A stretch of 44,756 nucleotides of DNA. Origin: a virus. Under the pieces are notes generated by a model. That model saw nothing but the letters and a program-made list of their open reading frames with translations. It was not told where the DNA came from and made no database searches. The stretch covers positions 1 to 44,756 of IMG/VR virus record IMGVR_UViG_3300008267_000143; one strand, given 5' to 3'. Of this stretch, positions 21,501 to 36,361 are shown one piece after another (within the stretch, counting starts at the first letter, position 1; each line of letters begins with the position of its first letter). Position numbers and translations under genes: made by a program.

Positions 21501-21605
21501 GGAGCGTGTTACAAAATTATCGAACCATTAATCCCAAGTGGTATAAGAAATAAAATAAGACCACAGGGAAATAGCGGAATACAGCAAATTGATATTTGTT
21601 ATTAA
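18558..21605 (+). CDS. SprB-repeat adhesin with Pro-Thr/Ser linker (probable tail fibre)
   Basis: A 1015-residue protein built mostly of about seven SprB-type repeats (residues ~55-640). Each has the form C-x-x-x-x-G-x-A ... GG-x-x-P-Y-x-Y-x-W ... L-x-x-G-x-Y-x-V-x-V-x-D-x-x-G-C, for example VGPYTYLWSNGQTS followed by GVYSVQVTDYYGC. SprB repeats are known from the flavobacterial gliding adhesin and other Bacteroidota surface proteins. A further domain follows, then a Pro-Thr/Ser linker (about 876-913) and a 100-residue C-terminal Cys-containing module. No signal peptide or sorting domain is present, consistent with a virion rather than a secreted protein. Its ATG overlaps the previous stop. 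Receptor binding is inferred. Confidence 0.85.
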   Translation: MACISGYTNDVYYSYFDCCGNIQTGIGPLYQPVCADQALSGSAVGVYLEPLSACTEDCNTGPLSYNFTTVGNCGTVSAGTITVNVYGGSPNYTIDNILPGSLSAKTFASQVSYTGLTGGTYVFRINDSQGLQNNEIYFNVIVSDCFETSLYNVSGTNCGEENGSFTVSANTTVSPFKIIVNKNGLFHDLYETSSLPFLVSGLDTGIYDVLVYDYGFTTAKTENAVISASTGIDYGFWVVNAANCVTNTGKAAVTGTTGVGPYTYLWSNGQTSQLATGLTQGVYSVQVTDYYGCITEKEVLIGQALPLGVGLTTTVNPNCSAGDGSFTVNLTGGTAPFYYELNNGLNGYTLSNSFTVSNLNAGTYTVSIRDANFCPLNTLVYLVPQGGVYNVSNVVTNSQCNQNSGSILTTFNAPYAASYSLGLTGQTTNEIRNVNTPNQNYTFSNLPNDTYTLRIIGQNGTCSYTDTVVVSSQEKFSVNVSITGSTCGSPNGKAIVNVGTGYTNWNTNGKLDYVLSNGQQVFDIQTNTISYDNLIPGQYTLTVTDDSNCAVTKTFFITDGGVLNSVLLSNDCVLGNDGTAAVIIFDGEPTFTYNWSPNVPISQTGSTVSGLSGGSYYVTVIDSDGCTNYHNFTINCSTTLVTGQTTYDLCESNFITNYAVKRGISEMIAEAYFDLTTGYTGCILNSIDLTCSITINGSAYTQNFIIANDATWKQTIESILSTIPQVGSYNVDLLNNKLTIKSNCTSGQIDPIGGSDFKLELEVAYNISCLEDISQNICFRFEYVPTAGKCSIGHSGKFNGKPYYQLVGGPSCNNLLNVYVWWNPTTNRWEASKNVLGNPNSLAYLNYQGTYPISVIPWTTTSNLFAMFSSTLGPCPTPTPSPTPSPTPTPSPTPTPSPTPTPSPTPSPTPSPTTVYYTWVSNNNAYYIGNSTGCYDTIGSLLLYTSTPTLSLGTILYSDPSLTTSISINYMDCAGQGGPAGGACYKIIEPLIPSGIRNKIRPQGNSGIQQIDICY
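21183..21296 (+). repeat. Pro-Thr/Ser linker repeat (in-frame DNA tandem repeat)
   Basis: Tandem copies of CCTACACCAACTCCGAGT and shorter forms encode about 38 residues of alternating P-T and P-S. The DNA repeat is nearly identical between units, so the linker length can change by recombination. It joins the SprB-type body to a C-terminal module. Confidence 0.9.
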
Positions 21606-21606
21606 A

Positions 21607-21894
21607 ATGGCATATTCAATAGACATATCAAATATTGTTGGTGGGACTGCACCGATTACTTTTTATGCTTGTGATGAAAACGGAAATAATTGTACGTTAT
21701 TAGGTACATCTCCTGGCGTTTACATATTACCTACTTTACTACAAAGTGCAACCACTTTTATGGTAAAATCTATAGATAATACAGGGTGTATTTATTTTAA
21801 GTTAATAACTTGTGGAGAGGAAACCTATATTATCCTTACAGAGCTTGGTGAGTTCTTAACTTCAGAAAACGGAGATATCTTAGAGTTTTTCTAA
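21607..21894 (+). CDS. Small Cys protein, SprB-unit-like (copy 1 of 3)
   Basis: A 95-residue protein. The ATG at 21607, one base after the upstream stop, is preferred over an upstream TTG at 21589. It resembles a single SprB-like unit: IVGGTAPITFYACDENGNNC, a Leu/Pro-rich middle and VKSIDNTGCIYFKLITC. The spaced pattern G-x-x-P-x-x-x-x-x-C-D ... C ... K-x-I-D-x-x-G-C is shared with the genes at 21912 and 30603, so the three are paralogues. The C-terminus ends in SENGDILEFF, echoing DGDIFEFQ in the 30603 copy. There is no signal peptide. Possibly a fibre tip, adaptor or chaperone; the function is unknown. Confidence 0.75.
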   Translation: MAYSIDISNIVGGTAPITFYACDENGNNCTLLGTSPGVYILPTLLQSATTFMVKSIDNTGCIYFKLITCGEETYIILTELGEFLTSENGDILEFF

Positions 21895-21911: not shown

Positions 21912-22199
21912 ATGATAATACAAATAACAGGAGACACAGGTGGGGTTGAACCTTACGACATATTTTTATGCGACCCAACAAACACATCATGTTTTTATGT
22001 TTCAGGTTTAACTAATATACCTGCAACAGTTGAAATTAATACCGATAATTATTTTCCTGATGAGGTAGTACTATACATTAAAATAATCGATGTTAATGGT
22101 TGTACATACACAAAAGAGATTAATTGCGAGGGTCAAAAGGCTTTCCAAGACTTTATTTATTTCAATTTTATGGATGGTGTCGGATATTATTTTCAATAA
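21912..22199 (+). CDS. Small Cys protein, SprB-unit-like (copy 2 of 3)
   Basis: A 95-residue paralogue of the proteins at 21607 and 30603. The shared core is visible: GGVEPYDIFLCDPTNTSCFY, then VVLYIKIIDVNGCTYTKEINC. In the 30603 copy the matching parts are IPLDIWLCDSCDSTATCVYY and YAVKVIDSNGCIYC. It ends YYFQ, whereas the 30603 copy ends EFQ. It sits immediately upstream of the capped fibre gene at 22221, as the 30603 copy does upstream of the fibre at 30910, so it is part of a duplicated cassette. The role is unknown; a fibre-specific partner is plausible. Confidence 0.75.
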   Translation: MIIQITGDTGGVEPYDIFLCDPTNTSCFYVSGLTNIPATVEINTDNYFPDEVVLYIKIIDVNGCTYTKEINCEGQKAFQDFIYFNFMDGVGYYFQ

Positions 22200-22220: not shown

Positions 22221-24833
22221 ATGCCAACATATCAATTACTCACAGATAGATCTTTAGCAGAATCAACAGCAATTACGCTAACGACTTTAATTCATATAGT
22301 TACAACTGCCGATACTAGACAAAATTTGGCGGGATCGTCTTACAAGGTACAGTTAGGGCAATTGGTTGGGTTATTTAGTGGGTCTACTTTTAGTGGGTCT
22401 ACTTTTAGTGGTGGTTCAGGAAATTGTATTGCGGATTTATATGTTAATAATATACACGGATGTGTTTCGGCAATTACTTTTTATGATTCTATTAAATCAT
22501 CCGGGTCAACAGTAACAAATCAAGAGTTAGCATTTTCGTATGGTATTAGAACATCCGCAACAACAAGTGCTAGTACTGCACTAAATTATGAAACAAGAGC
22601 ATCGGGGATTGGTTCATTGGCACAAGGGGCAAACACATGGGCATCAAATACCGCTTCACATGCGGAAGGGGCGTATACAATTGCGTCGGGGGTTGGTTCA
22701 CATGCCGAAGGTGGTTATAATATTGGGTCGACAATTTATTCAGGTGGTACCGCATCGGGTAGAGGTTCGCATGCCGAAGGCGCATTTACAATCGCCAGTG
22801 GTGATGGTTCGCATGCCGAAGGAGTCGCTACTTTGGCTTCAGGTAGAGGTTCTCATGCTGAGGGTGGTTATTATGATGGTGGCGTTTTTTCAGGTGGTAC
22901 CGCAATTGGTAGAAGTTCACATGCTGAGGGTTTATTAACAACATCAGAAGGTACTGGCTCACATTCTGAGGGTAGATCCACATTATCATATGGTGCTGGA
23001 TCACATGCCGAAGGGTCTGGTACAACATCTTTTGGACAATACTCACATTCTGAAGGTAAAGGAACCTATGCTAGAGGCAACTTCCAAAGTGTTGTCGGGT
23101 TTTTTAATTCAACCGGTGATACAACAGAAGGCGCATTCATAATTGGTAATGGTTCTGATAATATCAATAGGAGTAATTTACTATTTGCAGCAGGGAATGA
23201 GGTTAATGTTTCAGGAAAAACAAAAACAACAAATTTACAAGTAACGTCAGGAGCAACCGCCGGTTATGTATTAACGGCAATAGACAGTAGTGGAAATACC
23301 CAATGGATTGATTTAGGATCGTATAGTAACGAATTAGATCCTGTTTTAACTATTACGGGAGTAACCGCATCCACTCTTAATATTGGTGATAGATTTTTAA
23401 TTAGTGGAGGAACAGGCATTTGGTCTGGTAAAGATAATCAAATAGCCGAATATACAGGTGCGGGGCCAACCGATTATAGTTATTACATACCTGTTTTAGA
23501 TGACGTAGTTTTTGTTACAGACACATTAACTACACTTAGATTTAATGGTACATCATGGATATCATGGAGAGGAACGGCAATCCTCCAAAACGGCAATAGT
23601 TTAACCACCTCAGTAAATATTGGGTCAAATAATAATAGGAATTTAACATTTAGAACATCAGGACAAACTAGGATGTTGATTTCTGGAAATACTGGAAATG
23701 TTTATATTGGAACAGGGACGACCTTACCAATAGACCAAAGATTACTTATTGATGGTAACATAAAAATAGCAGACTCAAGATATTATGGTTATTCAGGGGG
23801 GACTGGAACAACAATAACTGGTAGAACATTAAATATATCACATAGTGCCGTAAATACCCATAGTATAGTAGGAGGTCCGAACAATGAAAGTATAACTTTT
23901 GGTCCGACAAATAGAATTTTTATTCAAGCGGGTGAAGTACCTATTATTGGGGCTTTATATGTTACACCACCTAGCGGACCTGCTCTTCTTGGTGGAAATA
24001 ATACTTCTGGTTTTCAAATTTTTAATGCTTTTGCATTACAGGCAAACACAACAAGAAACGGAATTATATTTCAACAAAACATATCTTGGAATGGAGGAAC
24101 TGGAACTACGTCAACATCTACAATAAATTCAGTAAAAATTAGCCCAACTGCTAATATGGTTACTGGTACAACAAATGGTAATCTTTTTGTGTTGGACCCA
24201 ACCATAAACTATACAGGAGGAACATTAAATTTAAGAGGACTTTATTATAATCCAACAATTTCTGCAACAACAACAGCATTCACAGAAACCGCAATTGAAA
24301 CCGTAAGAGGTAATGTATTATTAAATACTTTATCTGGAAATACAGGAATTGGAACTATATTGCCACAAGAAAAATTAGACGTAAGTGGTAAAACAAAAAC
24401 AATAAATTTACAAGTAACTTCAGGAGCAACTCCTGGTTATGTTTTAACGGCAATAGATAGTAGTGGAAACACTAGTTGGCAATCATTAGTTCCACCATTT
24501 ATAAATCCCGGAACCGCATCAACAATAAATTGGAATATATCAGGAAGTAGTAATCATTATAAAGTAACATTAACTGCGGCAACAACAACTTTGAATGTTT
24601 TAAACGTAAGAGGTGGTGAATATGGGACAATAATTTTAACTCAAGATAGTGTTGGTAGTAGAACAATAACTTTAGGTACAATAAACGGAACGTCAGGATC
24701 GGGAAGACATAAAGTTTCAAGTGGAGGATCAGGGGCTGTTTATTTAACAAGTAACCCAAGTGCTATAGATATTTTATCGTTTGTTTATGATGGTGATATA
24801 TTGTATTGGACAGTTGGAAATGATTATACGTAA
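22221..24833 (+). CDS. Tail fibre with SHAEG (YadA-head-like) repeats and conserved N/C caps
   Basis: An 870-residue fibre. Residues 1-50 (a SLAESTAITLTTLIHIVTT-type cap) match the N-terminus of the protein at 30910. Residues 146-279 hold nine SHAEG/SHSEG repeats spaced 13-25 residues apart, as in the left-handed beta-roll heads of YadA-like trimeric adhesins and some phage fibres. Two copies of a GYVLTAIDSSGNT motif (about 348 and 739) are typical of trimeric fibre shafts in Bacteroidota phages. The last ~100 residues, ending in ILYWTVGNDYT, match the 30910 protein. Common ends with a swapped middle suggest modular exchange. Probably trimeric and receptor-binding; the oligomeric state is inferred. 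Confidence 0.88.
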   Translation: MPTYQLLTDRSLAESTAITLTTLIHIVTTADTRQNLAGSSYKVQLGQLVGLFSGSTFSGSTFSGGSGNCIADLYVNNIHGCVSAITFYDSIKSSGSTVTNQELAFSYGIRTSATTSASTALNYETRASGIGSLAQGANTWASNTASHAEGAYTIASGVGSHAEGGYNIGSTIYSGGTASGRGSHAEGAFTIASGDGSHAEGVATLASGRGSHAEGGYYDGGVFSGGTAIGRSSHAEGLLTTSEGTGSHSEGRSTLSYGAGSHAEGSGTTSFGQYSHSEGKGTYARGNFQSVVGFFNSTGDTTEGAFIIGNGSDNINRSNLLFAAGNEVNVSGKTKTTNLQVTSGATAGYVLTAIDSSGNTQWIDLGSYSNELDPVLTITGVTASTLNIGDRFLISGGTGIWSGKDNQIAEYTGAGPTDYSYYIPVLDDVVFVTDTLTTLRFNGTSWISWRGTAILQNGNSLTTSVNIGSNNNRNLTFRTSGQTRMLISGNTGNVYIGTGTTLPIDQRLLIDGNIKIADSRYYGYSGGTGTTITGRTLNISHSAVNTHSIVGGPNNESITFGPTNRIFIQAGEVPIIGALYVTPPSGPALLGGNNTSGFQIFNAFALQANTTRNGIIFQQNISWNGGTGTTSTSTINSVKISPTANMVTGTTNGNLFVLDPTINYTGGTLNLRGLYYNPTISATTTAFTETAIETVRGNVLLNTLSGNTGIGTILPQEKLDVSGKTKTINLQVTSGATPGYVLTAIDSSGNTSWQSLVPPFINPGTASTINWNISGSSNHYKVTLTAATTTLNVLNVRGGEYGTIILTQDSVGSRTITLGTINGTSGSGRHKVSSGGSGAVYLTSNPSAIDILSFVYDGDILYWTVGNDYT
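22377..22406 (+). repeat. 15-base perfect tandem repeat in the fibre gene
   Basis: AGTGGGTCTACTTTT occurs twice in a row (22377-22391 and 22392-22406), with a partial third unit after it. It encodes SGSTF repeats in a Gly/Ser linker after the N-terminal cap. The length preserves the frame, so copy number can vary without breaking the protein. Confidence 0.85.
22656..23057 (+). repeat. SHAEG repeat array
   Basis: Nine in-frame SHAEG/SHSEG units (first at residue 146, last at 275) are encoded by similar DNA (TCACATGCCGAAGG and variants). The repeats also produce long open frames in the other five frames, which are artefacts. Confidence 0.9.
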
Positions 24834-24836
24834 AAT

Positions 24837-26639
24837 ATGAGAGGAGCATCATTTTTTTCAAGAAATAAGTCACAAGATATTTTTAATGTTAGATTTACTG
24901 GAAGTACTTTTCAGTTTGGAAGTAGCTTTGCTGACCTAACAACAAAAAGATTATTAGTGGGTATAAGTGGGTACCCGACTTCTTATAGTGCGGTAACATC
25001 AACCGCAACGACAAAAACATATACAATCGCCGGCCTAACATTAGGTGAAAAAATCGCACAAGTTAAAACTTTTAATACTGGCGAAATAGGTATTACGAGT
25101 TTCCAAGGGTCTGGATTAATTGGTGATTTAAATTTTACAAAATGGAATAAAATTGAAGCTATTTTTGGTGTTATTGCAACAGATAGTTTGTCTGCGGTTA
25201 CAAACCCTATTAATTGGTGTGGACAAACAAATTCTAATTATAATTTATCTAATACGTATATATTAGAAAATACTGGTGTTAAAAATCTTGATATTTCCAT
25301 GTTTAATAGGGTAAGGGATATCACGGTTAAGGGTAATAAATCTTTGACCGCAATAACATTACCTAGTACATATATTGCGGGATCTCCAAGAATCATAGAA
25401 TTTAGAAATAATAATTTAACAGGACAACTTAATCTTACACCATTCAGTGATAAAATGAATACATCAACATATTCATTTTATTTAGATAGTAACCCACAAT
25501 TAACAGGAGTTACGTTCCCAAATGTTGGGCCACGAGTTGGTGGTGTTGCGGTTCCTTTATTATGGGTGTATAATACCAATATTACCGGTAATGTTGATTT
25601 ATCTATGTTATCTGGGTTTCCTGTTAATATCACTTTTGAAAATTGTTCAAATTTAACAGGAGTTACTTTACCTACCTCCACAGCAATTAATTCTGGATCC
25701 AATTCTTGTGTCACAAATGGGGTTGCCAACTTTACTTTTGCTGGATGTAATTTACAAGGGATTCTTGATTTAAGTATATTCCCAAATTTAGGTGGTTCTG
25801 GTAGTGGAGGCGGAACATTAGATTTAAGATTAAACACAGGATTAACACAAGTTATTCTAACTTCGTCCACCAAAAATTTTGACGAAATACGTATAAATGA
25901 TTGTGACTTGACTGGAAATTTAAATTTAAGTGGATTAACAGGAAGATTAGGCGGTGCGTTTCAGTTACAAAATAATTCTAATTTAACGGGTGTAACGTTT
26001 AGTAGTGGTTGTACTCATTTAGCGTCACTTACTAATAGTTTTTATTTGTATAATTGTAATTTAACTGGCACATTGGATTTAACAACATTAAGTGGATTAG
26101 GAGGTTCATTTTTAATTAATCTTAACCCAAACCTAACACAAATTTTACACGGACCATCATCAAGTAGTTTTAGGATTTATTACGCAAGTAATTGTAATTT
26201 AACCGGCACTTTAGATTTGAGTCCTTTGTCTGGGTTAAGTGGATCAATACAGATCTATATAAATCCTTCTCTAACTAATATAACATTTCCTACATCTATT
26301 GGTACATTTAACAATACAAGTACTTTTGAACCTGATAGTGCATTTGCTTTATATCAGAATGGATTAAATTATGTGGACTTTAAACCATTGTCGGGTGCAA
26401 CTTTAACTAATAATTCAAAAATAAGGTTACAAAATAACGGAATGACGGCATCAGAAGTTAACCAAATACTTGTTGATTTTAGTGGTAATGCGACATATAA
26501 CCTATCGGGGTGGGATAATATAAACTTAGACATCGGAGGATCAAACGCCAACCCCGACAATTCTAGTGGTGGATATGATGGATTGGCTGCGGTTTCATTC
26601 TTAACTGGTTCACCCCGAAATTGGACAATTACTTATTAG
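24837..26639 (+). CDS. Leucine-rich-repeat-like adhesin, cassette copy 1
   Basis: A 600-residue protein made of about eight two-strand repeats of roughly 45 residues. The pattern is N-x-x-L-T-x-I/V-T-F ... C-N-L-T-G-x-L-D-L-S-x-L-S-G-L-G-G-x-F, for example NCNLTGTLDLTTLSGLGGSF, giving a leucine-rich-repeat-like solenoid. The N-terminal ~100 residues differ from the copy at 31532 except for an F-F/T-S-R-N start. The last ~70 residues are closely similar (VDFSGNATYNLSGW ... FLTGSPRNWTITY). It starts three bases after the fibre gene and is followed two bases later by the MIWRLIY gene. Probably a receptor-binding or fibre-associated protein. Confidence 0.85.
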   Translation: MRGASFFSRNKSQDIFNVRFTGSTFQFGSSFADLTTKRLLVGISGYPTSYSAVTSTATTKTYTIAGLTLGEKIAQVKTFNTGEIGITSFQGSGLIGDLNFTKWNKIEAIFGVIATDSLSAVTNPINWCGQTNSNYNLSNTYILENTGVKNLDISMFNRVRDITVKGNKSLTAITLPSTYIAGSPRIIEFRNNNLTGQLNLTPFSDKMNTSTYSFYLDSNPQLTGVTFPNVGPRVGGVAVPLLWVYNTNITGNVDLSMLSGFPVNITFENCSNLTGVTLPTSTAINSGSNSCVTNGVANFTFAGCNLQGILDLSIFPNLGGSGSGGGTLDLRLNTGLTQVILTSSTKNFDEIRINDCDLTGNLNLSGLTGRLGGAFQLQNNSNLTGVTFSSGCTHLASLTNSFYLYNCNLTGTLDLTTLSGLGGSFLINLNPNLTQILHGPSSSSFRIYYASNCNLTGTLDLSPLSGLSGSIQIYINPSLTNITFPTSIGTFNNTSTFEPDSAFALYQNGLNYVDFKPLSGATLTNNSKIRLQNNGMTASEVNQILVDFSGNATYNLSGWDNINLDIGGSNANPDNSSGGYDGLAAVSFLTGSPRNWTITY

Positions 26640-26641
26640 TT

Positions 26642-26863
26642 ATGATTTGGAGATTAATTTATTCGGATAATGAAATAATTGACTTGTTTAAAACGTCAGA
26701 CATCACAATATCTATACATAATATTTTTGATAGTAATAGTATTGAAGATTGTTACAAAAAAATTGAAGAGTTAAAGTTTGATTATGAACACACAGAAGAC
26801 GGTTTTGAGTATATAATGTTCAATAATGGAGATAGGACTTACGAGATAAGAACAAAAAAATAA
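26642..26863 (+). CDS. MIWRLIY small protein, cassette copy 1
   Basis: A 73-residue protein. The ATG at 26642 (two bases after the LRR stop) is chosen because the paralogue at 33661 begins at the same point; an in-frame TTG at 26621 lies inside the LRR gene. The two copies share MIWRLIY, a D-L-F segment, an N-x-F-D-x-N/T-x-x-x-E core, a K-I-E/D-E-L-K segment and NGDRTYEI versus GGNRTIIN near the end. It is mixed alpha/beta with no signal peptide. It always follows the LRR gene, so a dedicated chaperone or attachment protein for that adhesin is the simplest guess. No known family is recognised. Confidence 0.8.
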   Translation: MIWRLIYSDNEIIDLFKTSDITISIHNIFDSNSIEDCYKKIEELKFDYEHTEDGFEYIMFNNGDRTYEIRTKK

Positions 26864-26882: not shown

Positions 26883-26904
26883 TTTCATAATTTTTATTAT
26901 GAAA
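26883..26904 (+). promoter_or_regulatory. Hairpin covering the glycosyltransferase start codon
   Basis: TTTCATAAT (26883-26891) and ATTATGAAA (26896-26904) form a perfect 9-base inverted repeat with a TTTT loop. The ATG of the next gene (26899-26901) lies in the right arm. It could limit translation initiation. With one G-C pair it is weak, and in AT-rich DNA it may be chance. Confidence 0.35.
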
Positions 26905-28134
26905 ATTTTTATTCAAATCGCCTCTTATAGGGATCCAGAACTTATCCCTACCATTAATTCTTGTTTAGAAAATGCTAAATATCCCGAGAATTTAGTATTT
27001 GGTATTTGTAATCAATACAACCCAAAAGACGATTTCAACATTGGTGAATTTGAAAATGATAAAAGATTTAAAATTTTAAACATACCATATAGTGAATCAA
27101 AAGGAGTTTGTTGGGCTCGTAATCAAGTACAACAACTTTATGATGAAGAGGATTATACCTTACAAATTGATTCCCATATGCGTTTTGAAAAAGATTGGGA
27201 CGAGACATTAATTGGTATGATAAAGCAACTTCAAGATATAGGAATTCCAAAACCTTTATTAACAGGATATGTTTCATCTTATGACCCAAATAATGATCCC
27301 GAAGGTAGAGTTAGAGTTCCTTGGAGAATGGCGTTTGATAAATTCATACCTGAAGGTGCGGTATTTTTTCTTCCCGAAACAATACCAAACTGGGAAGATA
27401 TTGATTTACCCGTACCTGCAAGATTTTATTCTGCCCATTTTTGTTTTACATTAGGAAGTTTTGCAAAAGAAGTCCAACACAATCCTGACTTTTATTTTCA
27501 CGGAGAAGAAATATCAATCGCCGTAAGAGCATTCACACATGGGTATGATTTATTTCATCCACATCGTGTTGTTTTATGGCATGAATATACAAGAAATGGT
27601 AGAGTAAAACAGTGGGACGATGATAAAGAGTGGTGGAAATTAAATGAAAAATCACATTTATTAAATAGAAGATTATTTGGGATGGACGGAGAACTCCAAG
27701 AAGGACATGACGGTAAATATGGGTTAGGTAATTTAAGAACTTTAAGAGATTACGAAAAATATGCAGGATTACTTTTTGAAAAAAGGGCGGTACAAGATTA
27801 TACGTTACAAAAACATTACCCACCAAACCCAGATTTTAATACAGAACAAGAATGGTTAAATAGTTTTACTAAAAATTTTACACATTGCATAAATTTAGAT
27901 TTTAATGAATTTAAAGAAGATGATTATGATTTTTGGGCTATTACCTTCCATGATGAAAATGGAAATGAAATGTATAGAAAAGATTGTACCGAACAAGAAA
28001 TAAAAAATTATTTAAGTGTTAAGTTTATTAATATTTGTAGAAATTTTTTAGTAACAAACAACCCAAAATCATGGTCAGTGTGGGTTCATTCTAAATCTAA
28101 AGAATGGATAAAACAATATACTGGAAATATATGA
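26899..28134 (+). CDS. Skp1-GlcNAc-transferase-like glycosyltransferase (PF11397 type)
   Basis: A 411-residue GT-A-type glycosyltransferase resembling the GlcNAc family (PF11397), whose Dictyostelium member adds GlcNAc to hydroxyproline of Skp1. The family signatures are clear: IFIQIASYRDPELIPTINSC at the start, GVCWARNQVQQLYDEEDY near residue 70, and the LQIDSHMRFEKDWDE segment (about 94-108) with the D-S-H metal-binding motif. A second conserved part (FYFHGEEISIAVRAFTHGYD, then HPHRVVLWHEYTR) is near 195-230. There is no signal peptide, so it acts in the host cytoplasm. It lies between two adhesin cassettes and overlaps the next glycosyltransferase by four bases. Acceptor unknown: phage fibres, or host surface or other glycans. 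Confidence 0.88.
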   Translation: MKIFIQIASYRDPELIPTINSCLENAKYPENLVFGICNQYNPKDDFNIGEFENDKRFKILNIPYSESKGVCWARNQVQQLYDEEDYTLQIDSHMRFEKDWDETLIGMIKQLQDIGIPKPLLTGYVSSYDPNNDPEGRVRVPWRMAFDKFIPEGAVFFLPETIPNWEDIDLPVPARFYSAHFCFTLGSFAKEVQHNPDFYFHGEEISIAVRAFTHGYDLFHPHRVVLWHEYTRNGRVKQWDDDKEWWKLNEKSHLLNRRLFGMDGELQEGHDGKYGLGNLRTLRDYEKYAGLLFEKRAVQDYTLQKHYPPNPDFNTEQEWLNSFTKNFTHCINLDFNEFKEDDYDFWAITFHDENGNEMYRKDCTEQEIKNYLSVKFINICRNFLVTNNPKSWSVWVHSKSKEWIKQYTGNI

Positions 28135-28913
28135 TTAAAAACTCAGTAATAGTCACTGCGCTTTTTGATATTGGAAGGGATTTATGGAAAGATTACCAAC
28201 AGTCCTACGGTACTTACCTTTATTGGATGAATAATATATTAAATATTGATTCTCATTTTATAATTTTTACAGAAGAAAAATTTGTAGAGACTATATTACA
28301 AAGTAGAAGAACTATTGACCCAAGTTTAGAAAAAACTAAAATAGTTGTAGAAAAATTTGAAAATTTAAAATCATATAAAAAATATTTTAATAAAATAAAA
28401 AATATTATGGATTCTGAAGATTTTCAAAAAAAAATACATTTTAGAGTGCCAGAAATGATTAATCCTGAATATAATACGGTTATATTTAATAAATTTTATT
28501 TTATTGAACAAGCAAAAAAAGAAATGGATTATGATCTTTATATTTGGTGCGATGCAGGACTATTAAGAAACGATGATTTTAAAAACCAAAAGTTCCCAAA
28601 CATAGAAAAAGTAAATAACGGGTTTTCAGACAAAATAACATTTTTTAGTCACGATACCGAGTTTTCAATACATAGTCGAGAAATGCATTTATTGTCTCAA
28701 TATAGATATATTCACGGAGGTTGTTTTTTTATACCAAAAAAATCTAATTTAAATTTTTTAGTAGAAACTTTTGAAAATTTGATAGAAAATTTTTTAAAAA
28801 ATGGTTATGTGGGTAGTGAAGAAAAATATTATGATTTTTGCTATGAGGATAATAAAGACACATTTAACATAGTAAAAGCCGATTGGAGGCAATATTTTAG
28901 TATATTCCAATAA
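28131..28913 (+). CDS. HtrL/YibB-family glycosyltransferase-like protein
   Basis: A 260-residue protein of the HtrL/YibB family (members include Campylobacter WlaTC-type proteins, linked to surface glycan synthesis). Signatures: SVIVTALFDIGRDLW at the start, YLYWMNNILNIDSHFIIFTE, the YDLYIWCDAGLLRNDDF segment (about 138-152) and a C-terminal HGGCFFIPKK segment. The ATG at 28131 overlaps the previous stop (ATGA); an upstream in-frame ATG at 28104 lies inside the other gene and is less likely. It is coupled to the PF11397-type gene, so the two probably act together. No signal peptide. The family call is good; the reaction is not established. Confidence 0.83.
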   Translation: MIKNSVIVTALFDIGRDLWKDYQQSYGTYLYWMNNILNIDSHFIIFTEEKFVETILQSRRTIDPSLEKTKIVVEKFENLKSYKKYFNKIKNIMDSEDFQKKIHFRVPEMINPEYNTVIFNKFYFIEQAKKEMDYDLYIWCDAGLLRNDDFKNQKFPNIEKVNNGFSDKITFFSHDTEFSIHSREMHLLSQYRYIHGGCFFIPKKSNLNFLVETFENLIENFLKNGYVGSEEKYYDFCYEDNKDTFNIVKADWRQYFSIFQ

Positions 28914-28942
28914 TTTAAACTTCAATAAAATAAACTTTCGAT

Positions 28943-28949
28943 TATTTAT
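28943..28949 (+). promoter_or_regulatory. TATTTAT element before the multi-linker protein gene
   Basis: TATTTAT lies in the 56-base gap after the glycosyltransferase pair, 20 bases before the ATG at 28970. The spacing would allow a short leader. No terminator-like hairpin is visible in this gap. Confidence 0.35.
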
Positions 28950-28969
28950 ATTATAAAGCTAAATATTAG

Positions 28970-30598
28970 ATGGCGGATTTAAAATTCGAAGGTTGTTGTT
29001 ATTCAGGTTATCAGTATATTACAGATGATACCGATTGGGTTGCCACCGGTGGCACCGCAACAACAGGACTTACCTATCATTTTTTAGGTGACCCTTTAGT
29101 ACCTAACGGTTGTTACACAATAGTTTCGGCATTCACTTCTGGTTTCAGTTCGACAACTTTTACGCAACTAACAGGAACATACACCCTACAAACAGGTTGT
29201 TCAGACACATTATGTTTAACAGGTAATTGTTGTAGTAGTATATTATGTGTTAACATTGCAATCGATTCGTATTCAGGTCTAAATGGTAATTATGTAGTTG
29301 CGGGAAATTATAATGATCACCCTTTTTGGACGGGAGGAACTAGTGGGTCTACAATATATTATAATAACATTAATTGGTGTTTATCGACAGGTTTATCATC
29401 AAATTGTTTATTTTATGGGACAAACCCAAGTTTTGACGTATGTCCTGATTTTAATAGTACTGTTGTTAATCGAGGGTCTTGTGGGCCCCAACCAACGCCA
29501 TACGATCCATGTTCCGTGTTAGATTTTGATGTTTTAACTGTTTGTGAAATACCGACACCTACACCATCACCATCACCAACGCCTACCCCAACACCTACAC
29601 CATCACCAACATCGGTACCCGATATATGCGATGGTTATGTTGTCTCAATATCATTTAGTTCAGTCACAGTTACACCTACACCAACACCTACACCAACTCC
29701 TACACCAACTCCTGTAATTTATCCTTATACTATAAATTCAGGTGTTACTTATGTAATTGATAGTGGTAACTTTGAATGTGTTGATTCTAAAGAATTAAAA
29801 GATTGTAATAATAATAACCTGTATTATGTTCCTGGACCTATTATATATTCAGGAAATGTTATAAACACAGGAACTACATTCTTCGCATTTATAAATAGTG
29901 AGTATAAGTGTGTTAGATTTGAAAGAAGTGTTTCAAATAGCCCAAGAGATTATATTAGTGAAGTATTTTCAACAGCATCAACTTGTAGTAGTTGTATTAT
30001 TGTGACACCTACACCAAGCCCAACTCCTACACCAAGCCCAACACCTAGTCCTACACCAAGCCCAACACCTGTACCGACATATTTACCTAACACTCAGTTT
30101 GTATTCACATCATGTACTAATAATAGTATGATTATTCAATACACACCAGTACCATATAATGTCAATGTTGGATCATTAATAAAAGATGTTTCAGGTAATT
30201 GTTATTCTTATGTTGGATATTACGCTAATTATTCACCACCTACGGGTTATATATGGAATGTTATAGAAACTTTTACTGCTAGTACTGCAACAACATATAC
30301 GACATGTTTAAGTTGTTTAACTCCACCAGTGACGCCTGGACCATCATATAAGACTTGGTATGGTAAGAGTGAATTTACTGTAACGTGTCCTACTTGTGAA
30401 CTAGTAAATGGTGGTAGTAATTTAACTTTCTATACCTCTTCAGGGGTAACAACGATAGGAGAAAACATTTATGTTTATGAAGACACTAGTTTAGAAACAC
30501 CAGTACTTTCATCATACATAAAATATAATAATAAAATTTACTCAGTAGATCAAAACGGTAAACTAAGTGAATTTTGCACAGTAAACGGAAATTGTTAA
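28970..30598 (+). CDS. Modular virion-type protein with three Pro-Thr/Ser linkers
   Basis: A 542-residue protein in which Cys-rich beta modules are separated by mucin-like linkers: residues ~1-194, linker ~195-217, a short strand segment, linker ~235-248, a module ~249-345, linker ~346-370, and two C-terminal modules. The modules resemble the C-terminal part of the SprB protein at 18558 (a YYTW/KTWY start, an 'SGVTTIGENIYVYEDTSLET'-like strand and a terminal Cys). There is no signal peptide, membrane anchor or sorting domain. It follows two glycosyltransferase genes, making the linkers candidate glycosylation substrates. Five bases upstream of cassette copy 2. Fibre role inferred. Confidence 0.82.
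   Translation: MADLKFEGCCYSGYQYITDDTDWVATGGTATTGLTYHFLGDPLVPNGCYTIVSAFTSGFSSTTFTQLTGTYTLQTGCSDTLCLTGNCCSSILCVNIAIDSYSGLNGNYVVAGNYNDHPFWTGGTSGSTIYYNNINWCLSTGLSSNCLFYGTNPSFDVCPDFNSTVVNRGSCGPQPTPYDPCSVLDFDVLTVCEIPTPTPSPSPTPTPTPTPSPTSVPDICDGYVVSISFSSVTVTPTPTPTPTPTPTPVIYPYTINSGVTYVIDSGNFECVDSKELKDCNNNNLYYVPGPIIYSGNVINTGTTFFAFINSEYKCVRFERSVSNSPRDYISEVFSTASTCSSCIIVTPTPSPTPTPSPTPSPTPSPTPVPTYLPNTQFVFTSCTNNSMIIQYTPVPYNVNVGSLIKDVSGNCYSYVGYYANYSPPTGYIWNVIETFTASTATTYTTCLSCLTPPVTPGPSYKTWYGKSEFTVTCPTCELVNGGSNLTFYTSSGVTTIGENIYVYEDTSLETPVLSSYIKYNNKIYSVDQNGKLSEFCTVNGNC
29552..29620 (+). repeat. Pro-Thr/Ser linker 1
   Basis: Twenty-three codons of P-T/P-S dipeptides (CCATCACCAACGCC-type DNA units) connect the N-terminal region to the next segment of the protein at 28970. 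Confidence 0.85.
29672..29713 (+). repeat. Pro-Thr linker 2
   Basis: Fourteen codons of pure T-P dipeptides made from ACACCTACACCA DNA units, preceding the second module of the protein at 28970. Confidence 0.85.
30005..30079 (+). repeat. Pro-Thr/Ser linker 3
   Basis: Twenty-five codons of T-P/S-P dipeptides (CCTACACCAAGCCCAAC units). The unit differs in codon use from the linker at 21183 (AGC and CCA here, AGT and CCG there), so the linkers probably expanded independently. Confidence 0.85.
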
Positions 30599-30602
30599 AA
30601 AT

Positions 30603-30890
30603 ATGGCAACAGTAGTAACATTAGCATCAACAACAGGATCGATTCCATTAGATATATGGTTATGTGATTCATGTGATAGTACGGCAACCTGTGTTTACTA
30701 TGATACAACAAACATTTTACCATATTCATTTACAGTACCTAGTGAATATGAAACCAATGTTACTTATGCAGTTAAAGTAATTGATAGTAATGGATGTATT
30801 TATTGTGAAACACCAACGAGTGAAAATAAATTATTTGAGGATGGAGACATATTTGAGTTTCAAGATGGAGACATATTTGAGTTTCAATAA
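30603..30890 (+). CDS. Small Cys protein, SprB-unit-like (copy 3 of 3)
   Basis: A 95-residue paralogue of the proteins at 21607 and 21912, with IPLDIWLCDSCDSTATCVYY and YAVKVIDSNGCIYC. The C-terminus is an in-frame duplication, DGDIFEFQ twice, produced by a recent 24-base tandem repeat. It lies five bases after the multi-linker protein and 19 bases before the capped fibre gene, the same relative position as the 21912 copy. It belongs to the second copy of the four-gene cassette. Function unknown; a fibre partner is plausible. Confidence 0.78.
   Translation: MATVVTLASTTGSIPLDIWLCDSCDSTATCVYYDTTNILPYSFTVPSEYETNVTYAVKVIDSNGCIYCETPTSENKLFEDGDIFEFQDGDIFEFQ
30840..30887 (+). repeat. 24-base perfect tandem duplication
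   Basis: A 24-base unit starting GATGGAGACATATTTGAG is repeated without a single difference (30840-30863 and 30864-30887). It duplicates the C-terminal octapeptide DGDIFEFQ. Perfect identity suggests a very recent event. Confidence 0.92.
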
Positions 30891-30909
30891 TATTTAAAAA
30901 ATTAAAAAA

Positions 30910-31521
30910 ATGGCAAGATTAACCGATAAAACCTTAGCGCAGTCAACAGCAATAACCCCTACAACGTTGATACATATTGTAACAACCGCAGATGTTACAC
31001 AAAACCCTGCTGGTTCATCATATAAAGCACAATTGAGTCAATTGGCAAGTTTATTCACGGGAGGTACTAGTGGTTCTGGTACATCAGGTACAAGCGGTAT
31101 TAATGGTATTAACGGTACATCAGGAACAAGCGGTATTAACGGTACATCAGGATCTAGTGGTACTTCTGGTGTGGGAGGATTATCAATAAACCCATATAAT
31201 AATTCAGGTAGTGGATCAACAATCACTTGGAATGTTTCAGGTGTTAGTACTAATTATGAAGCAACATTAACCGCAACAACCACTTTAAATCTTACCGGTG
31301 TTAGAAATGGTGATTACGGTACAATAATAATAAAACAAGATAGTATTGGCGGTAGGACATTAACATTGGGTACAGTGAATAGTTTGTCCGCAACACATAG
31401 AGTGGCAAATGGGGGAGGGAGTGTAGTGATATTAACATCAACCGCAAATGCCACTGACATTTTAACATTCACATATAATGGTTCTATAATGTATTGGACA
31501 GTTGGAAATGATTATACCTAA
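30910..31521 (+). CDS. Short capped fibre protein with a collagen-like segment
   Basis: A 203-residue short version of the fibre at 22221. The N-terminal 50 residues (TLAQSTAITPTTLIHIVTT) and the last ~100 residues (YGTIIIKQDSIGGRTLTLGT ... IMYWTVGNDYT) match that protein, but the 700-residue SHAEG/shaft middle is replaced by about ten Gly-X-Y triplets (GTS, GIN, GSS; residues ~51-89). Such triplets are typical of trimeric collagen-like phage fibres. The matched ends imply a common attachment domain and a common C-terminal trimerisation or binding domain. It could be a minimal fibre, a deletion derivative or an alternative receptor-binding protein. Confidence 0.85.
   Translation: MARLTDKTLAQSTAITPTTLIHIVTTADVTQNPAGSSYKAQLSQLASLFTGGTSGSGTSGTSGINGINGTSGTSGINGTSGSSGTSGVGGLSINPYNNSGSGSTITWNVSGVSTNYEATLTATTTLNLTGVRNGDYGTIIIKQDSIGGRTLTLGTVNSLSATHRVANGGGSVVILTSTANATDILTFTYNGSIMYWTVGNDYT
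31063..31176 (+). repeat. Collagen-like Gly-X-Y repeat
   Basis: In-frame GGTACATCAGGAACAAGC-type units encode GTS, GIN and GSS triplets, continuous for about ten triplets after one irregular step. This replaces the long central region found in the paralogous fibre at 22221. Confidence 0.82.
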
Positions 31522-31531
31522 AAATTAACAT

Positions 31532-33658
31532 ATGAGTAGACAACTTTTTACATCAAGAAATAATATTAATGACGTTATAGTTTTTCAAAAGAGCGGGGCA
31601 ACCAATTCTTTTGACCCTGAAATTACATTTACTTCAGGTACTAGAAGAGTTTCTTGGAGATTATATAATGGTACTGAAACTATACAAAGGCCCGGTAATT
31701 CAATCACCTATAGTGGTTTTTCTGCGGACACACAAATAAGAAATATAGAATTAAGGGGTAATAGTTTAAAAAACGTCAGTTTATTTAGATTGTTTGAGGA
31801 CAATTTATATGGTAGATTAGATATATCAAAAATAACAAATTTAAGTGGAACATTTGATGTACAAGGAAATTCAAATTTAACTGGAATAACTCACGGATCT
31901 TCATCACAAAACATTGGTGGATATATTGTTCCACTTTGTAATTTAACTGGAAACTTAAATTTAACACCTTTAAATGATATCGGAGGGGGGATTTATTTTT
32001 ACAGTAATCCTAATTTAACTGGCGTTACTTTTTCTCCTACAAATATAAACACTACGCCTGTTGGTTTCTTTTATGCGTATGGTTGCGACATACGAGGAAA
32101 TTGGAATCTACCATTTTCTAAATTAGGTGGAGATTTTAGGGTTCAAGGTAATACAAGATTAACTGGTATTACACACCAACCATCATCTACTTTACTTAAT
32201 AACTATCTTGCAAGTAGTTGTGATTTAAAGGGTAATTTAAATTTACCATTTTCTAATATGGGTGGTAATTTTAACGTGTCTAGTAATAGTGGATTGACGA
32301 GTATAACACATAGTGCAACTTCAAGGACTTTTAGTGGGTGGATTGCTTCAGTGTGTAATTTAACGGGTAATACCGACCTTTCGATGTTATCTGGATTATC
32401 TGGTTCATTTCAGATACAACAAAACCCTAATTTAACAGGTATTACATTCACCAATTCAATATCGCCAAGTAACTTTGGAGTATTTTATGCCAACCAATGC
32501 GATTTAACCGGTAATTTGAATCTACCATTTTCTGGTTTTGGTGGTGACGTTATAATGCACACTAATCCTAAATTAACAGGGATAACACATACACCTTCAT
32601 CTGTTATTTTTAGTAGATACTGGGTTTATTCGTGTGGATTAACCGGTAATCATAACCTACCATTTTCTAATTTAGGTGGACAGTTTAGTATGGAAAGTAA
32701 CCCAAAATTAACAGGAGTAACCCATAGTGCATCTAGTCAGACTTTTACCACGTACAACCTTCAAAACTGTAATATTAAAGGAAATTTAGACGTTTCCATG
32801 TTATCTGGTTTAGGTGGTCAGTTTTTAGTAAATAACAACACGGGTCTCACATCTGTGACACATGTAGTATCATCAAATAATTTTACTCTTTATTATGCAT
32901 ATAATTGTAACTTACAAGGGAATCTAAATTTACCTTTTTCTGGTTTAGGTGGTGATATAAGAATTTATAATAATACTGGATTAACATCAGTAACGCATGT
33001 AACTTCTAATAGAAATGTGGACGTGTATTATATATATGGTTGTAAATTGACCGGTAACCACAATGTACCATTTACTAACTTAGGTGGACTTTTTGATTTA
33101 CAAGCAAATACTCTATTAACGGGAATTACCCACGTAAATTCAAGTAGACCAATTCGTACTTATAACGTATTTGAATGTAATATTTTAGGAAATTTAGATT
33201 TATCGCCACTGACAGGTTTAGGGGGTACAGGATCAACAAATACCGGAACTATACGTTTATATACTAATTCAGGTATGACTAATGTGACATTACCGGTTAC
33301 TACAGGGTATTTTAAAAATATTCTTAATTCTGATATAAATTCAGCATTTGCTTTTCATAATTGTGATTTAAATTATGTTGATTTTAAACCGTTTTCTGGC
33401 GTAACTATGGTTTCAGGTTCAACAGAAGGGTTACCTAAAATTACATTATATAATAATAATATGATTGCATCTGACGTTAATAGAATATTAGTTGATTTTA
33501 GTGGAAATGCAACCACAAATGCCGTTGGGTGGAAAAATGTTAATTTAAATATTGGGGGAACAAACGCAGATCCTGACTCATCAAGTGGTGGTTATAATGG
33601 TTTAGCTGCAATATCCTTTTTAACAGGTTCACCCTATAATTGGACAATAACTTATTAA
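31532..33658 (+). CDS. Leucine-rich-repeat-like adhesin, cassette copy 2
   Basis: A 708-residue paralogue of the protein at 24837, with about ten repeats of ~45-46 residues. Each has a G/N-L-T-G/S-I/V-T-H strand, a variable segment of about 13 residues, a Y-x-x-x-x-C-N/D-L-x-G-N turn, a L-N-L-P-F-S-x-L-G-G strand and a short N-x-N loop. The Cys recurs once per repeat at the same place, forming a ladder, while the residues just before it vary. The last ~70 residues match copy 1. It starts ten bases after the short fibre and is followed by the MIWRLIY copy 2. Probably receptor-binding; the repeat count differs from copy 1. Confidence 0.86.
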   Translation: MSRQLFTSRNNINDVIVFQKSGATNSFDPEITFTSGTRRVSWRLYNGTETIQRPGNSITYSGFSADTQIRNIELRGNSLKNVSLFRLFEDNLYGRLDISKITNLSGTFDVQGNSNLTGITHGSSSQNIGGYIVPLCNLTGNLNLTPLNDIGGGIYFYSNPNLTGVTFSPTNINTTPVGFFYAYGCDIRGNWNLPFSKLGGDFRVQGNTRLTGITHQPSSTLLNNYLASSCDLKGNLNLPFSNMGGNFNVSSNSGLTSITHSATSRTFSGWIASVCNLTGNTDLSMLSGLSGSFQIQQNPNLTGITFTNSISPSNFGVFYANQCDLTGNLNLPFSGFGGDVIMHTNPKLTGITHTPSSVIFSRYWVYSCGLTGNHNLPFSNLGGQFSMESNPKLTGVTHSASSQTFTTYNLQNCNIKGNLDVSMLSGLGGQFLVNNNTGLTSVTHVVSSNNFTLYYAYNCNLQGNLNLPFSGLGGDIRIYNNTGLTSVTHVTSNRNVDVYYIYGCKLTGNHNVPFTNLGGLFDLQANTLLTGITHVNSSRPIRTYNVFECNILGNLDLSPLTGLGGTGSTNTGTIRLYTNSGMTNVTLPVTTGYFKNILNSDINSAFAFHNCDLNYVDFKPFSGVTMVSGSTEGLPKITLYNNNMIASDVNRILVDFSGNATTNAVGWKNVNLNIGGTNADPDSSSGGYNGLAAISFLTGSPYNWTITY

Positions 33659-33660
33659 TT

Positions 33661-33882
33661 ATGATTTGGAGATTAATATACACAAACACAGAAGCTATCG
33701 ATTTGTTTGAAACAAATGGAATAACAGCCACACCTTATCAAATTTTTGATACAAACACACAAGAAGAAGGTTTTGATAAAATTGATGAATTAAAAATAAC
33801 ATATTACTACCCTTTAAATGAAAATGAAATATTATTATTTAGTGGAGGGAATAGGACAATTATTAATAAAGAAGAAATTTAA
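33661..33882 (+). CDS. MIWRLIY small protein, cassette copy 2
   Basis: A 73-residue paralogue of the protein at 26642, with the same length and the same MIWRLIY start. The core YQIFDTNTQEEGFDKIDELK aligns with HNIFDSNSIEDCYKKIEELK in copy 1, and the end is GGNRTIINKEEI. It begins two bases after the LRR stop, exactly as in copy 1, and its stop overlaps the next ATG (TAATG). Conserved size, start and position after the LRR gene argue for a real coding gene with a role tied to the LRR adhesin. No known family recognised. Confidence 0.8.
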   Translation: MIWRLIYTNTEAIDLFETNGITATPYQIFDTNTQEEGFDKIDELKITYYYPLNENEILLFSGGNRTIINKEEI

Positions 33883-35522
33883 TGAGTACATTTAGCGGTA
33901 ATAGTTGTAACATAATAACACTTTTTCCTATGACGGTTCAGTGTTCAGTGGTGAATGCGTATTCACCATCAACTAGCGACGGTTCTATTTTTTTATTTAT
34001 AACAGGAGGAACCCCACCATACAGAATTACTTGGGCAAACGGATCTCAAAATCAAAATTTAACAAGTGTTGGTGTCGGTAACTATACCGCAAACGTTGTT
34101 GATTATTATGGTGATTTTAGTGCGACAACCACATGTACTGTTGGTAGTACTACCGTTTTGGTTGAAGAGTTTTTTAGTTGTACAGACCCAAGTAATAAGT
34201 TATACTATTTAGCAAATTTAAGTTTCCCATACCCAAGTGGTGATACATTTACTTTATCATCACAACAAGGATGTTGGGTAAGTAATGGACAAAAATTGTT
34301 TTCAGGACAAAATTATTTTAATTATTCTGCAACAACAACATCAGGGCCATTTGAGGATTGTGTGACGTGTTTACCACAAACACCAGAGTTTGAAAACACT
34401 TCAGGACTTTGTTTAAATTATACAATTTATAATTTTGCAACACAACAACCATCTGGTGTTTTACAAACTCAATTTTTTTCTGCAGGAACGTATAACGGTT
34501 ACCCAAGTTGGACATCCATAACACCACCCCAAAAAATATTTTTTAATACGGCAACAAGTGCTTGGAATATCTCAGGATGGACATACGGTACAGGATTCCC
34601 AAGTCTACAACAAACAATTTCACCACCAATAGGTATATGGACTATTGATGGAAATATAGGGTTAATTGATATAACACAAGGAAATTGTTCTCCAGTAATC
34701 GGAGCAACAATTCAAAAAACCAATCCTACGTGTGTTGGGTCTTCAAACGGACTAATTAAAGTAAACACAGTATTTGGAGGAACACCACCATACACATATT
34801 CTTTAAATAATATAGTTTATCAAAACTCAAATATATTTAATAATTTACCTGTTGGAAATTACGTTATTTACATAAAAGATATAATCGGAAATACCGTAAT
34901 AAAACAAGCGGTTTTAACACCCCAACAACAAACAACAACATATCAGGTCAATTTATCATTTGTACCGGCAACCCCTCAAACTCAGTTAACGTCAACTTCA
35001 ACACAAAAAATCGGAAATTGGGTTGTTAATGTCACACCGGCACTACCATCAAATAGGGTGGTAAATATGACCATTTATAATACTACTGAGTTATCAACAG
35101 GTAATTCATTATATGCAAATCCTTTATTAACATATTCAAACACAACAGGAACAACAGGAACCGCTTCTTTTAATTCCTCAAGTGTACAAACTACCACTAA
35201 TTCATTTACAAATACTGTTTCTTGCCATCCTTTATATAAAACAACTGGAGTGACTAGAACTTACCAAGTTAGTATATCAGGAACAGGTCAAGCCACCGGA
35301 ACAATACTTCAAAAAGTTACAGTTTCAAACCAAAGTGTTGGTTGTACAAATAAAGGTGAAATAAAAGATACTATATCTATAGCAAATATTACGTTAGTAA
35401 ATCAACAACCTTGCGAGTCAATAACTACAAACGTTACACCAATTACGTTTACAACAACAAAAACCAGTAGCGTTGGTTATTACTACTCAGGGGGAGGAAT
35501 AGGACTTGGAAATTTAGGATGA
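33882..35522 (+). CDS. SprB-repeat-containing virion-type protein (546 residues)
   Basis: A 546-residue protein with two clear SprB-type repeats: residues ~20-90 (DGSIFLFITGGTPPYRITWA ... VGVGNYTANVVDYYG) and ~270-345 (GTPPYTYSLNNIVY ... PVGNYVIYIKDIIGN). Between them are Cys-containing modules like those in the proteins at 18558 and 28970. The C-terminal third is Thr/Ser/Asn-rich and ends in a Gly-rich tail (GYYYSGGGIGLGNLG). No signal peptide. The ATG overlaps the MIWRLIY stop, and its own stop overlaps the DUF6734-like gene (ATGA), coupling an adhesin to a third glycosyltransferase-like gene. Fibre or decoration role inferred. Confidence 0.82.
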   Translation: MSTFSGNSCNIITLFPMTVQCSVVNAYSPSTSDGSIFLFITGGTPPYRITWANGSQNQNLTSVGVGNYTANVVDYYGDFSATTTCTVGSTTVLVEEFFSCTDPSNKLYYLANLSFPYPSGDTFTLSSQQGCWVSNGQKLFSGQNYFNYSATTTSGPFEDCVTCLPQTPEFENTSGLCLNYTIYNFATQQPSGVLQTQFFSAGTYNGYPSWTSITPPQKIFFNTATSAWNISGWTYGTGFPSLQQTISPPIGIWTIDGNIGLIDITQGNCSPVIGATIQKTNPTCVGSSNGLIKVNTVFGGTPPYTYSLNNIVYQNSNIFNNLPVGNYVIYIKDIIGNTVIKQAVLTPQQQTTTYQVNLSFVPATPQTQLTSTSTQKIGNWVVNVTPALPSNRVVNMTIYNTTELSTGNSLYANPLLTYSNTTGTTGTASFNSSSVQTTTNSFTNTVSCHPLYKTTGVTRTYQVSISGTGQATGTILQKVTVSNQSVGCTNKGEIKDTISIANITLVNQQPCESITTNVTPITFTTTKTSSVGYYYSGGGIGLGNLG

Positions 35523-36361
35523 TAGAAAGAGCAATATATAGTTTATGGACAAAACCAATGAATGATGAATTCACCGGTTTTAATACGGAGCAAAGTTTAA
35601 TGGAGTGTTTTTCATTATCGGTTAATTACTCAAAAAAATGGTTTAAAGAGGTTCATTTAATTACCGATTTAAAAGGTAAAGAATTAGTTGAAGATTATAA
35701 TTTAAGTTTTGACCATATAAATACAGATTTAGAAGAGGTTTTAAGTGATGTTGATAAAAAAAATTGGGCGATAGGTAAACTATATTCCATGAAAATTCAA
35801 GACAAACCATTTTTACATATAGATAACGACGTTATACTTTTTAAAAAATTACCTGACGAAATGTTAAAGAAGGAAATTTTATTTCAGTGTTCAGAAAAAG
35901 AAGTTTATCCTTATTATAGAGATTTATTAGATTTTGATGAAATTAATTTTAAAGATAAACCATCTTGGTATAATACAAAAAAAGTTGAGGCATATAATTG
36001 TGGTATTGTTGGAATGAATAGATTGGATTTATTAGAAGAATGGTGGGAAAGTGCTTTATCACATATTGAGTATTTGAAAAAAATTGGTGGTTATGGTGAT
36101 ATAAGACAAACACCATGTTTAGTTTTTGAACAACAATATGTTGGTTGTTTAGTTGAACATTATGGTTATGATATTGGAATGTTATCGGATTATTCAGAAA
36201 ACAAACATTGGGTTGAAGATGATATTGCGGAAAAACTTGGATACACACACCTTATTTCTGATTGTAAAAGAGACCCAAAAGTTGAAAAAAAAATTAAAGA
36301 TAAGTTAAAAAAAGAAGGGATAGTGGTTAAAAAAAATAACAAAGAGTTGAATATTTATTAA
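35519..36361 (+). CDS. DUF6734-like putative glycosyltransferase
   Basis: A 280-residue GT-A-fold-like protein matching my knowledge of the DUF6734 family. It has an AIYSLWTKP start, a KKWFKEVHLITDLKGKEL segment, the WAIGKLYSMKIQDKPFLHID part and the metal-binding-type IDNDVILFKKLP motif (about 98-109), then EAYNCGIVGMNRLDLLEEWW. The family is mostly from Bacteroidota and is thought, not proven, to transfer sugars. It is coupled by ATGA overlap to the SprB-like gene upstream and lies three bases before the next virion gene. This is the third putative glycosyltransferase in the adhesin region, each from a different family. Confidence 0.8.
   Translation: MIERAIYSLWTKPMNDEFTGFNTEQSLMECFSLSVNYSKKWFKEVHLITDLKGKELVEDYNLSFDHINTDLEEVLSDVDKKNWAIGKLYSMKIQDKPFLHIDNDVILFKKLPDEMLKKEILFQCSEKEVYPYYRDLLDFDEINFKDKPSWYNTKKVEAYNCGIVGMNRLDLLEEWWESALSHIEYLKKIGGYGDIRQTPCLVFEQQYVGCLVEHYGYDIGMLSDYSENKHWVEDDIAEKLGYTHLISDCKRDPKVEKKIKDKLKKEGIVVKKNNKELNIY

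Follow-up and report, generated by a model that had tools for sequence, protein, structure and literature searches.

Virion glycosylation in phages is documented in few cases. For the mycobacteriophages Che8 and Rita (Freeman et al. 2023), the reported targets are the capsid and the tail tube (PMC11256854, PMC12619734). Che8 is an F1 phage whose capsid protein is reported there to be glycosylated (PMC11256854), and its glycosyltransferase genes (a GT2-methyltransferase fusion, a GT2, and a GT25) lie in overlapping order; another F1 phage, WIVsmall, lists an HtrL_YibB protein (PMC10453261). In phage XacN1, proteomic analysis is reported to have found at least two glycoproteins, and the phage glycosyltransferases ORF328 and ORF334 were suggested as their makers (PMC5852040). 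Here, we analyzed the whole of the IMG/VR virus record IMGVR_UViG_3300008267_000143 (44,756 bp; the window), which is probably a fragment of a virus genome and encodes gp25 and baseplate J. It carries three putative glycosyltransferase genes among genes for adhesin- or fiber-like proteins: one of the GT60 family (PF11397), one of HtrL_YibB, and one of DUF6734. Judging from sequence comparison, we consider it likely that the phage glycosylates its own tail or fiber proteins by two separate virion-glycosylation modules, and while phage virion glycosylation as such is already known, the cassette of GT60 with Pro-Thr linkers and the pairing of a peptide tag with DUF6734 look new.

The GT60-HtrL_YibB cassette and associated Pro-Thr/Ser linkers

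A sequence-only reading of the window had proposed these three genes and the coupling of two of them to their neighbors through ATGA overlaps, and profile searches and coordinates bear out both proposals. All genes and elements of the two modules lie on the plus strand. The GT60-type gene (26899-28134) encodes a putative polypeptide O-glycosyltransferase of 411 aa that matches PF11397 with an E value of 3.9e-68 (230.9 bits against a curated cut-off of 21) and the PHROG glycosyltransferase profile phrog_24687 at 1e-155. It has a DxH motif, D91-S92-H93, and the DSH does not vary across an alignment of 34 homologues. The replacement of DxD by DxH is the hallmark of GT27 and GT60, two families that share polypeptide Ser/Thr glycosylation, and the characterized GT60 enzymes have polypeptide acceptors (PMC7185993, PMC8724618). 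Sequence searches of the PDB with the GT60 and the HtrL profiles found no relative of either.

The HtrL_YibB gene (28131-28913) overlaps the end of the GT60 gene at 28131-28134. Its start is most likely at 28131 and not at the longer in-frame open reading frame start at 28104, because the ATGA is formed there with the end of GT60. The protein matches PF09612 at 2e-21 (77.2 bits against a cut-off of 24.1), and its match to TIGR02192 (2.8e-24, 86 bits) is below the curated cut-off of 265, so that it is not the E. coli-type YibB equivalog. Neither HtrL_YibB nor DUF6734 has an assigned function as a family, and structures were predicted for these two with AlphaFold2. The HtrL_YibB model had a predicted local distance difference test score (pLDDT) of 94, with xyloside xylosyltransferase 1 as the top fold match (4.5e-6), and LARGE1 and nucleotidyltransferases of related fold among the other top matches. 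We predict a GT-A glycosyltransferase fold; the template-modeling (TM) scores of both models against the PDB, about 0.35 to 0.49, support fold and class and not a substrate.

The same gene order recurs widely. A GT60 search of viral contigs gave 149 matching contigs, from which 80 loci were kept, and together with the window and two cultured phages this allowed 88 GT60 gene copies to be compared, some of the viral loci being duplicates. A same-strand gene, mostly a variable fiber-like one, lies 5' of GT60 in 80 of 84 cases, and 69 of the 88 loci have an HtrL_YibB homologue within nine same-strand genes 3' of it. The GT60-to-HtrL runs of these 69 loci are compact (gaps of 20 nt or less in 248/265 intergenic spaces) and encode 334 proteins, only 1 of which has a hydrophobic segment (hydropathy above 1.6 over 19 residues), and no integral-membrane flippase or polytopic transferase of the type used in Gtr serotype conversion was seen among them. 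Pfam assigns cassette representatives to GT2, GT10, GT25, GT34, PLOD-type, and GT1-like transferases, to FkbM and RMNT/CmcI methyltransferases, to a carbamoyltransferase, and to a HAD-nucleotidyltransferase. The cassette thus appears to be made up entirely of soluble enzymes, an initiating GT60 and then others for extension and capping, and the window has its shortest form, GT60 and HtrL only. What is found is an operon of soluble phage glycosyltransferases in or near structural genes, an arrangement expected of a phage virion glycosylation system. A GT60-HtrL_YibB pair was also seen on what appears to be a bacterial chromosome, in a Saprospiraceae metagenome-assembled genome (MAG; L344, 7980-11100), next to a protein sorted by the type IX secretion system (Por_Secre_tail), a NAD kinase, and Omp85; this is a possible cellular source of the pair.

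The candidate acceptors of GT60 are Pro-Thr/Ser linkers, which the sequence-only reading had described at four positions of the region. All four positions are exact, and the linkers are confined to two proteins. The SprB-repeat adhesin or fiber at 18558-21605 (PF13573, 2e-10) has one of 40 residues (21183-21302), and the adhesin- or fiber-like protein at 28970-30598 has three, two of them Pro-Thr/Ser (29552-29620 and 30005-30079) and one Pro-Thr (29672-29716). The latter protein belongs to a family (C7) that in relatives lies just 3' of GT60, with or without HtrL. The protein beside DUF6734 (33882-35522) has no such linker, ending instead in a different C-terminal tag. The linker codons are a synonymous mixture (CCA/CCT/CCG/CCC and ACA/ACT/ACC/ACG), and no single perfect DNA repeat underlies them.

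Linkers and GT60 occur together far above controls. A DNA pattern for (P[TS])4 was present in 47/50 GT60-positive virus records, while the same pattern written backward gave one match in all. After removal of the records that had been picked for linkers and addition of two GT60-positive records from the control set, linkers were found in 42/45 GT60-positive records versus 9/47 GT60-negative ones, the latter being records picked for GTS-repeat fibers (Fisher P = 9e-14). When the set was dereplicated by hand at 92% GT60 identity, the count was 26/27 (P = 2e-11), or 26/29 if the two linker-negative near-duplicates dropped in this step are kept. The reverse association was weaker: PF11397 was present in 11 of the 50 records picked for linkers and in 3 of the 50 picked for GTS repeats (P = 0.04). 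It may have been diluted by pattern matches in low-complexity DNA that has nothing to do with linkers. Linker proteins are commonest in the position directly 5' of GT60 (29/82) and in that of the second gene 3' of it (15/77), falling to a few per cent farther away. With the linkers masked, these proteins form eight groups, two of them dominant, and the association is therefore not that of one gene family.

A C-terminal tag paired with DUF6734

The third gene (35519-36361) matches PF20508 at 3.4e-40 (138.7 bits against a cut-off of 27) and overlaps the gene at 33882-35522 by an ATGA at 35519-35522. Its DxD motif is D102-N103-D104, within an H-[IL]-D-x-D that is conserved among homologues. The AlphaFold2 model (pLDDT 85, predicted TM score 0.87) has glycogenin as its best PDB fold match (8e-7), followed by xyloside xylosyltransferase, LgtC, and LARGE1, and viral GT8 proteins in BFVD match it as well. 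No sequence match to PF01501 (GT8) was obtained at an E value of 0.1, and the protein is predicted to be a GT8-like GT-A glycosyltransferase by fold, not a GT8 member by sequence. A single-sequence search recovered no DUF6734 relatives from viral contigs, but an alignment query did; none was found in the phage collection.

The SprB-repeat fiber or adhesin directly upstream (33882-35522; PF13573, 3e-16) ends in the tag GYYYSGGGIGLGNLG (35475-35519), a putative acceptor or recognition site. The tag has the consensus YY(Y)x(2-6)G[IV]G[VIL]xN[LI] at the end of a tail-type protein directly 5' of a phage DUF6734, and the proteins encoded upstream of DUF6734 in L007/L008, L326, L329, L331 to L334, and L342 carry it at their C termini as well. 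Without their last 28 residues, the tagged proteins sort into three groups (window/L007; L326/L329/L331/L333; L342) between which no similarity is detected, and the neighboring DUF6734 proteins are 35 to 67% identical. The codons of the tag differ between loci; it is therefore conserved as a peptide. Among 1738 proteins examined, 16/16 tagged proteins precede DUF6734, although some come from overlapping loci of one contig, and the tag is absent from 15/15 homologues of the 33882-35522 protein that lack DUF6734.

A DNA-pattern scan for the tag across 2.9 million viral contigs gave seven matches, and every in-frame one precedes DUF6734: five at the ends of visible genes that DUF6734 follows, and one adjoining DUF6734 in a tagged gene cut by the contig end. 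The DUF6734 search had already turned up five of these contigs, and L342 is the new independent case. The match in L343 is out of frame and was dismissed as chance. The DUF6734 of L007 resembles its counterparts next to proteins of the L329/L331 family (66% identity) more than that of the window (49%), which suggests that tag and enzyme have passed as a pair from one protein family to another. We tentatively propose that the adjacent DUF6734 may use the tag as its dedicated acceptor, possibly by glycogenin-like Tyr glycosylation, and that the two may have moved jointly between unrelated phage tail proteins.

The family also occurs outside phages, with PF20508 present in 15/395 Bacteroidota genomes. 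The tag pattern was not found in these 395 genomes, and within this sample it looks phage specific. Six bacterial loci (L355, L356, L358, L359, L361, and L370) have a small GG-leader-like peptide beside DUF6734, that of L370 with a clear lanthipeptide-type leader (NF038153, 8e-12), and in 4/9 bacterial loci DUF6734 has a C39 peptidase no more than about 13 kb away. The nearby peptides and peptidases weakly point to ribosomal peptides as substrates of the family. The six loci are also possible unrecognized modified-peptide clusters, and a second DUF6734 subgroup (L366 to L369 and L371 to L374), sometimes in tandem pairs, lies by proteins that by eye resemble cargo associated with extracellular contractile injection systems.

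Proposed mechanism and competing explanations

In the mechanism that we propose, tail and fiber proteins would be glycosylated in the host cytoplasm, ahead of assembly. In the first module, GT60 would add the first sugar, probably alpha-N-acetylglucosamine (alpha-GlcNAc) or a similar N-acetylhexosamine, to Thr/Ser, most plausibly in the (T/S)P linkers of the neighboring adhesins and in the manner of the protist mucin-type polypeptide alpha-GlcNAc-transferases. HtrL_YibB would then extend or cap the glycan, joined in relatives by up to about eight further soluble transferases and methyltransferases. In the second module, the GT8-like DUF6734 would modify the C-terminal tag YYYSGGGIGLGNL of the fiber encoded directly upstream, most plausibly at its invariant Tyr pair. 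Sequence analysis shows the identity of the genes, their predicted folds and motifs, the structure of the operon, the enrichment of linkers, and the pairing of tag and enzyme; which residues accept which sugars, at what stage, and whether this serves shielding, resistance to proteases, or recognition of a receptor is our inference. The earlier idea that the phage glycosylates its own fibers remains the best fit, with GT60, HtrL, and linkers co-occurring above controls and a precedent in the reported virion glycoproteins of XacN1, a cultured phage with the same pair of transferases (PMC5852040). It has to be amended for DUF6734, which is tied to the tag of its upstream neighbor and not to Pro-Thr linkers.

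Several observations weigh against this interpretation. No linker of the searched form was found in 3/50 GT60-positive records, and GT60 is sometimes far from any; the linkers therefore need not be the sole acceptor. The compared genomes share ancestry and are not independent, and the P values overstate their independence. The fold matches of DUF6734 are moderate (TM scores 0.36 to 0.48), so that "glycogenin-like" denotes a GT8-like fold only, and the DUF6734 loci L335 and L336 have no tagged upstream neighbor. In bacteria, the GG-leader matches other than the clear one in L370 are below curated cut-offs. The glycoproteins of XacN1 are not named in the available text, and electron microscopy saw no tail fibers (PMC5852040). 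Pro-Thr linkers also occur in 9/47 GT60-negative phages. This last observation fits an alternative in which the linkers are plain adhesin spacers, the tag, carried along with DUF6734, serves for assembly or for binding a chaperone, and virion proteins are glycosylated elsewhere. The tag is indeed Gly rich and C terminal, and in mycobacteriophages capsid and tail tube are the structures reported to be glycosylated (PMC12619734). Spacers alone, however, explain neither the enrichment of linkers with GT60 nor the pairing of the tag with DUF6734 on three nonhomologous proteins, and we regard this alternative as unlikely.

It is less probable still that the enzymes modify host surface glycans (lipopolysaccharide [LPS]/O-antigen or capsule) for serotype conversion or superinfection exclusion and share a host-range module with the fibers. 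Fiber genes and receptor-modifying genes can share a location, and LPS enzymes are found among GT10 and GT25 relatives. Against this, the near absence of hydrophobic segments from the cassette proteins (1/334), with no GtrA/GtrC-like or flippase component seen, does not fit such a pathway, DUF6734 tracks a peptide tag, and the characterized GT60 enzymes modify polypeptides (PMC8724618, PMC7185993).

The sequence-only reading had also raised a hydroxyproline route, with prolyl hydroxylation followed by GlcNAc transfer by GT60 as on Skp1. The protist Skp1 glycan is hydroxyproline linked and begins with GlcNAc (PMC8724618), and a host hydroxylase could act. A search of the 50 GT60-positive virus records for 2-oxoglutarate-Fe(II) oxygenases of the prolyl hydroxylase type (PF13640) was, however, positive in 2 and negative in 48, and GT60 groups with Ser/Thr transferases. 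This route was not borne out and is very improbable; Thr/Ser glycosylation is preferred because of this count and because the other characterized GT60 enzymes use Thr/Ser. Least credible of all is glycosylation of hypermodified phage DNA, as by the T4 alpha- and beta-glucosyltransferases: phage glycosyltransferases are often DNA modifying (discussed in PMC12619734), but the three proteins have no match to a DNA-glucosyltransferase family in Pfam or PHROGs (no search for base-modification genes was made), the genes are located in the tail region and not by nucleotide metabolism, and the associations of linker and tag would be left unexplained.

If self-glycosylation of fibers is correct, GT60-initiated mucin-type O-glycosylation would be widespread in uncultured freshwater phages, the Pro-Thr linkers in so many freshwater phage fibers would be explained, and cultured phages with glycosylated particles could be predicted. 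The pair of tag and enzyme would offer a testable substrate for DUF6734, and the tag could serve as a minimal peptide for glycosylating proteins site-specifically in bacterial cells.

Host, surrounding genes, and comparison with known systems

The host of the virus is most likely a Bacteroidota bacterium, an assignment based on the GT60 relatives in Saprospiraceae MAGs and on the SprB repeats (PF13573) of the two adhesins at 18558-21605 and 33882-35522, a domain named for a Bacteroidota gliding adhesin. Between the first of these and GT60 lies a large adhesin (22221-24833) with repeated SHAEG motifs like those of YadA-type trimeric adhesin heads. After each of two leucine-rich-repeat-like proteins with LTG repeats (24837-26639 and 31532-33658) comes a gene of 80 aa, from the same family in both cases (26621-26863 and 33640-33882), forming a duplicated unit of a fiber plus a small protein. 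A module family of about 95 aa has three copies in the window (21607-21894, 21912-22199, and 30603-30890) and 65 occurrences in related loci.

Among cultured phages, XacN1, CM1, and RAS14 have a GT60 relative, and all three also encode the long form of HtrL_YibB; Pro-Thr linker proteins lie near GT60 in XacN1 and RAS14. In XacN1, ORF334, one of the two suggested makers of its glycoproteins, is the GT60 homologue. Like the window, this phage combines GT60 (47% identical) with HtrL_YibB (ORF330), and it has in addition a GT9, a carbamoyltransferase, and Pro-Thr linker proteins within 15 kb (ORF325 and ORF350). It differs from the window virus in being a jumbo phage of a proteobacterium. Its authors counted two glycosyltransferases, and HtrL_YibB and the linkers are not discussed in the searched text of their report (PMC5852040). 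Che8 resembles the cassette in its compact, phage-encoded run of soluble glycosyltransferases with a methyltransferase, but its transferases are not of GT60, and the reported mycobacteriophage targets are capsid and tail tube rather than Pro-Thr linkers. The GT60 alpha-GlcNAc-transferases of protists (Dictyostelium and Trypanosoma cruzi, including Skp1 Gnt1) share with the window enzyme PF11397, the DxH, a Pro/Thr-rich candidate acceptor, and the lack of a lectin domain match, whereas the window enzyme is virus encoded, predicted to be cytosolic, and placed in tail-gene operons with HtrL_YibB, its activity being putative. Glycogenin (GT8), the best solved-fold match of DUF6734, likewise has a DxD, and its acceptor is a protein Tyr, as the invariant Tyr pair of the tag might be; at a TM score of about 0.4 and some 10% identity the two differ, and DUF6734 would act in trans on its neighbor.

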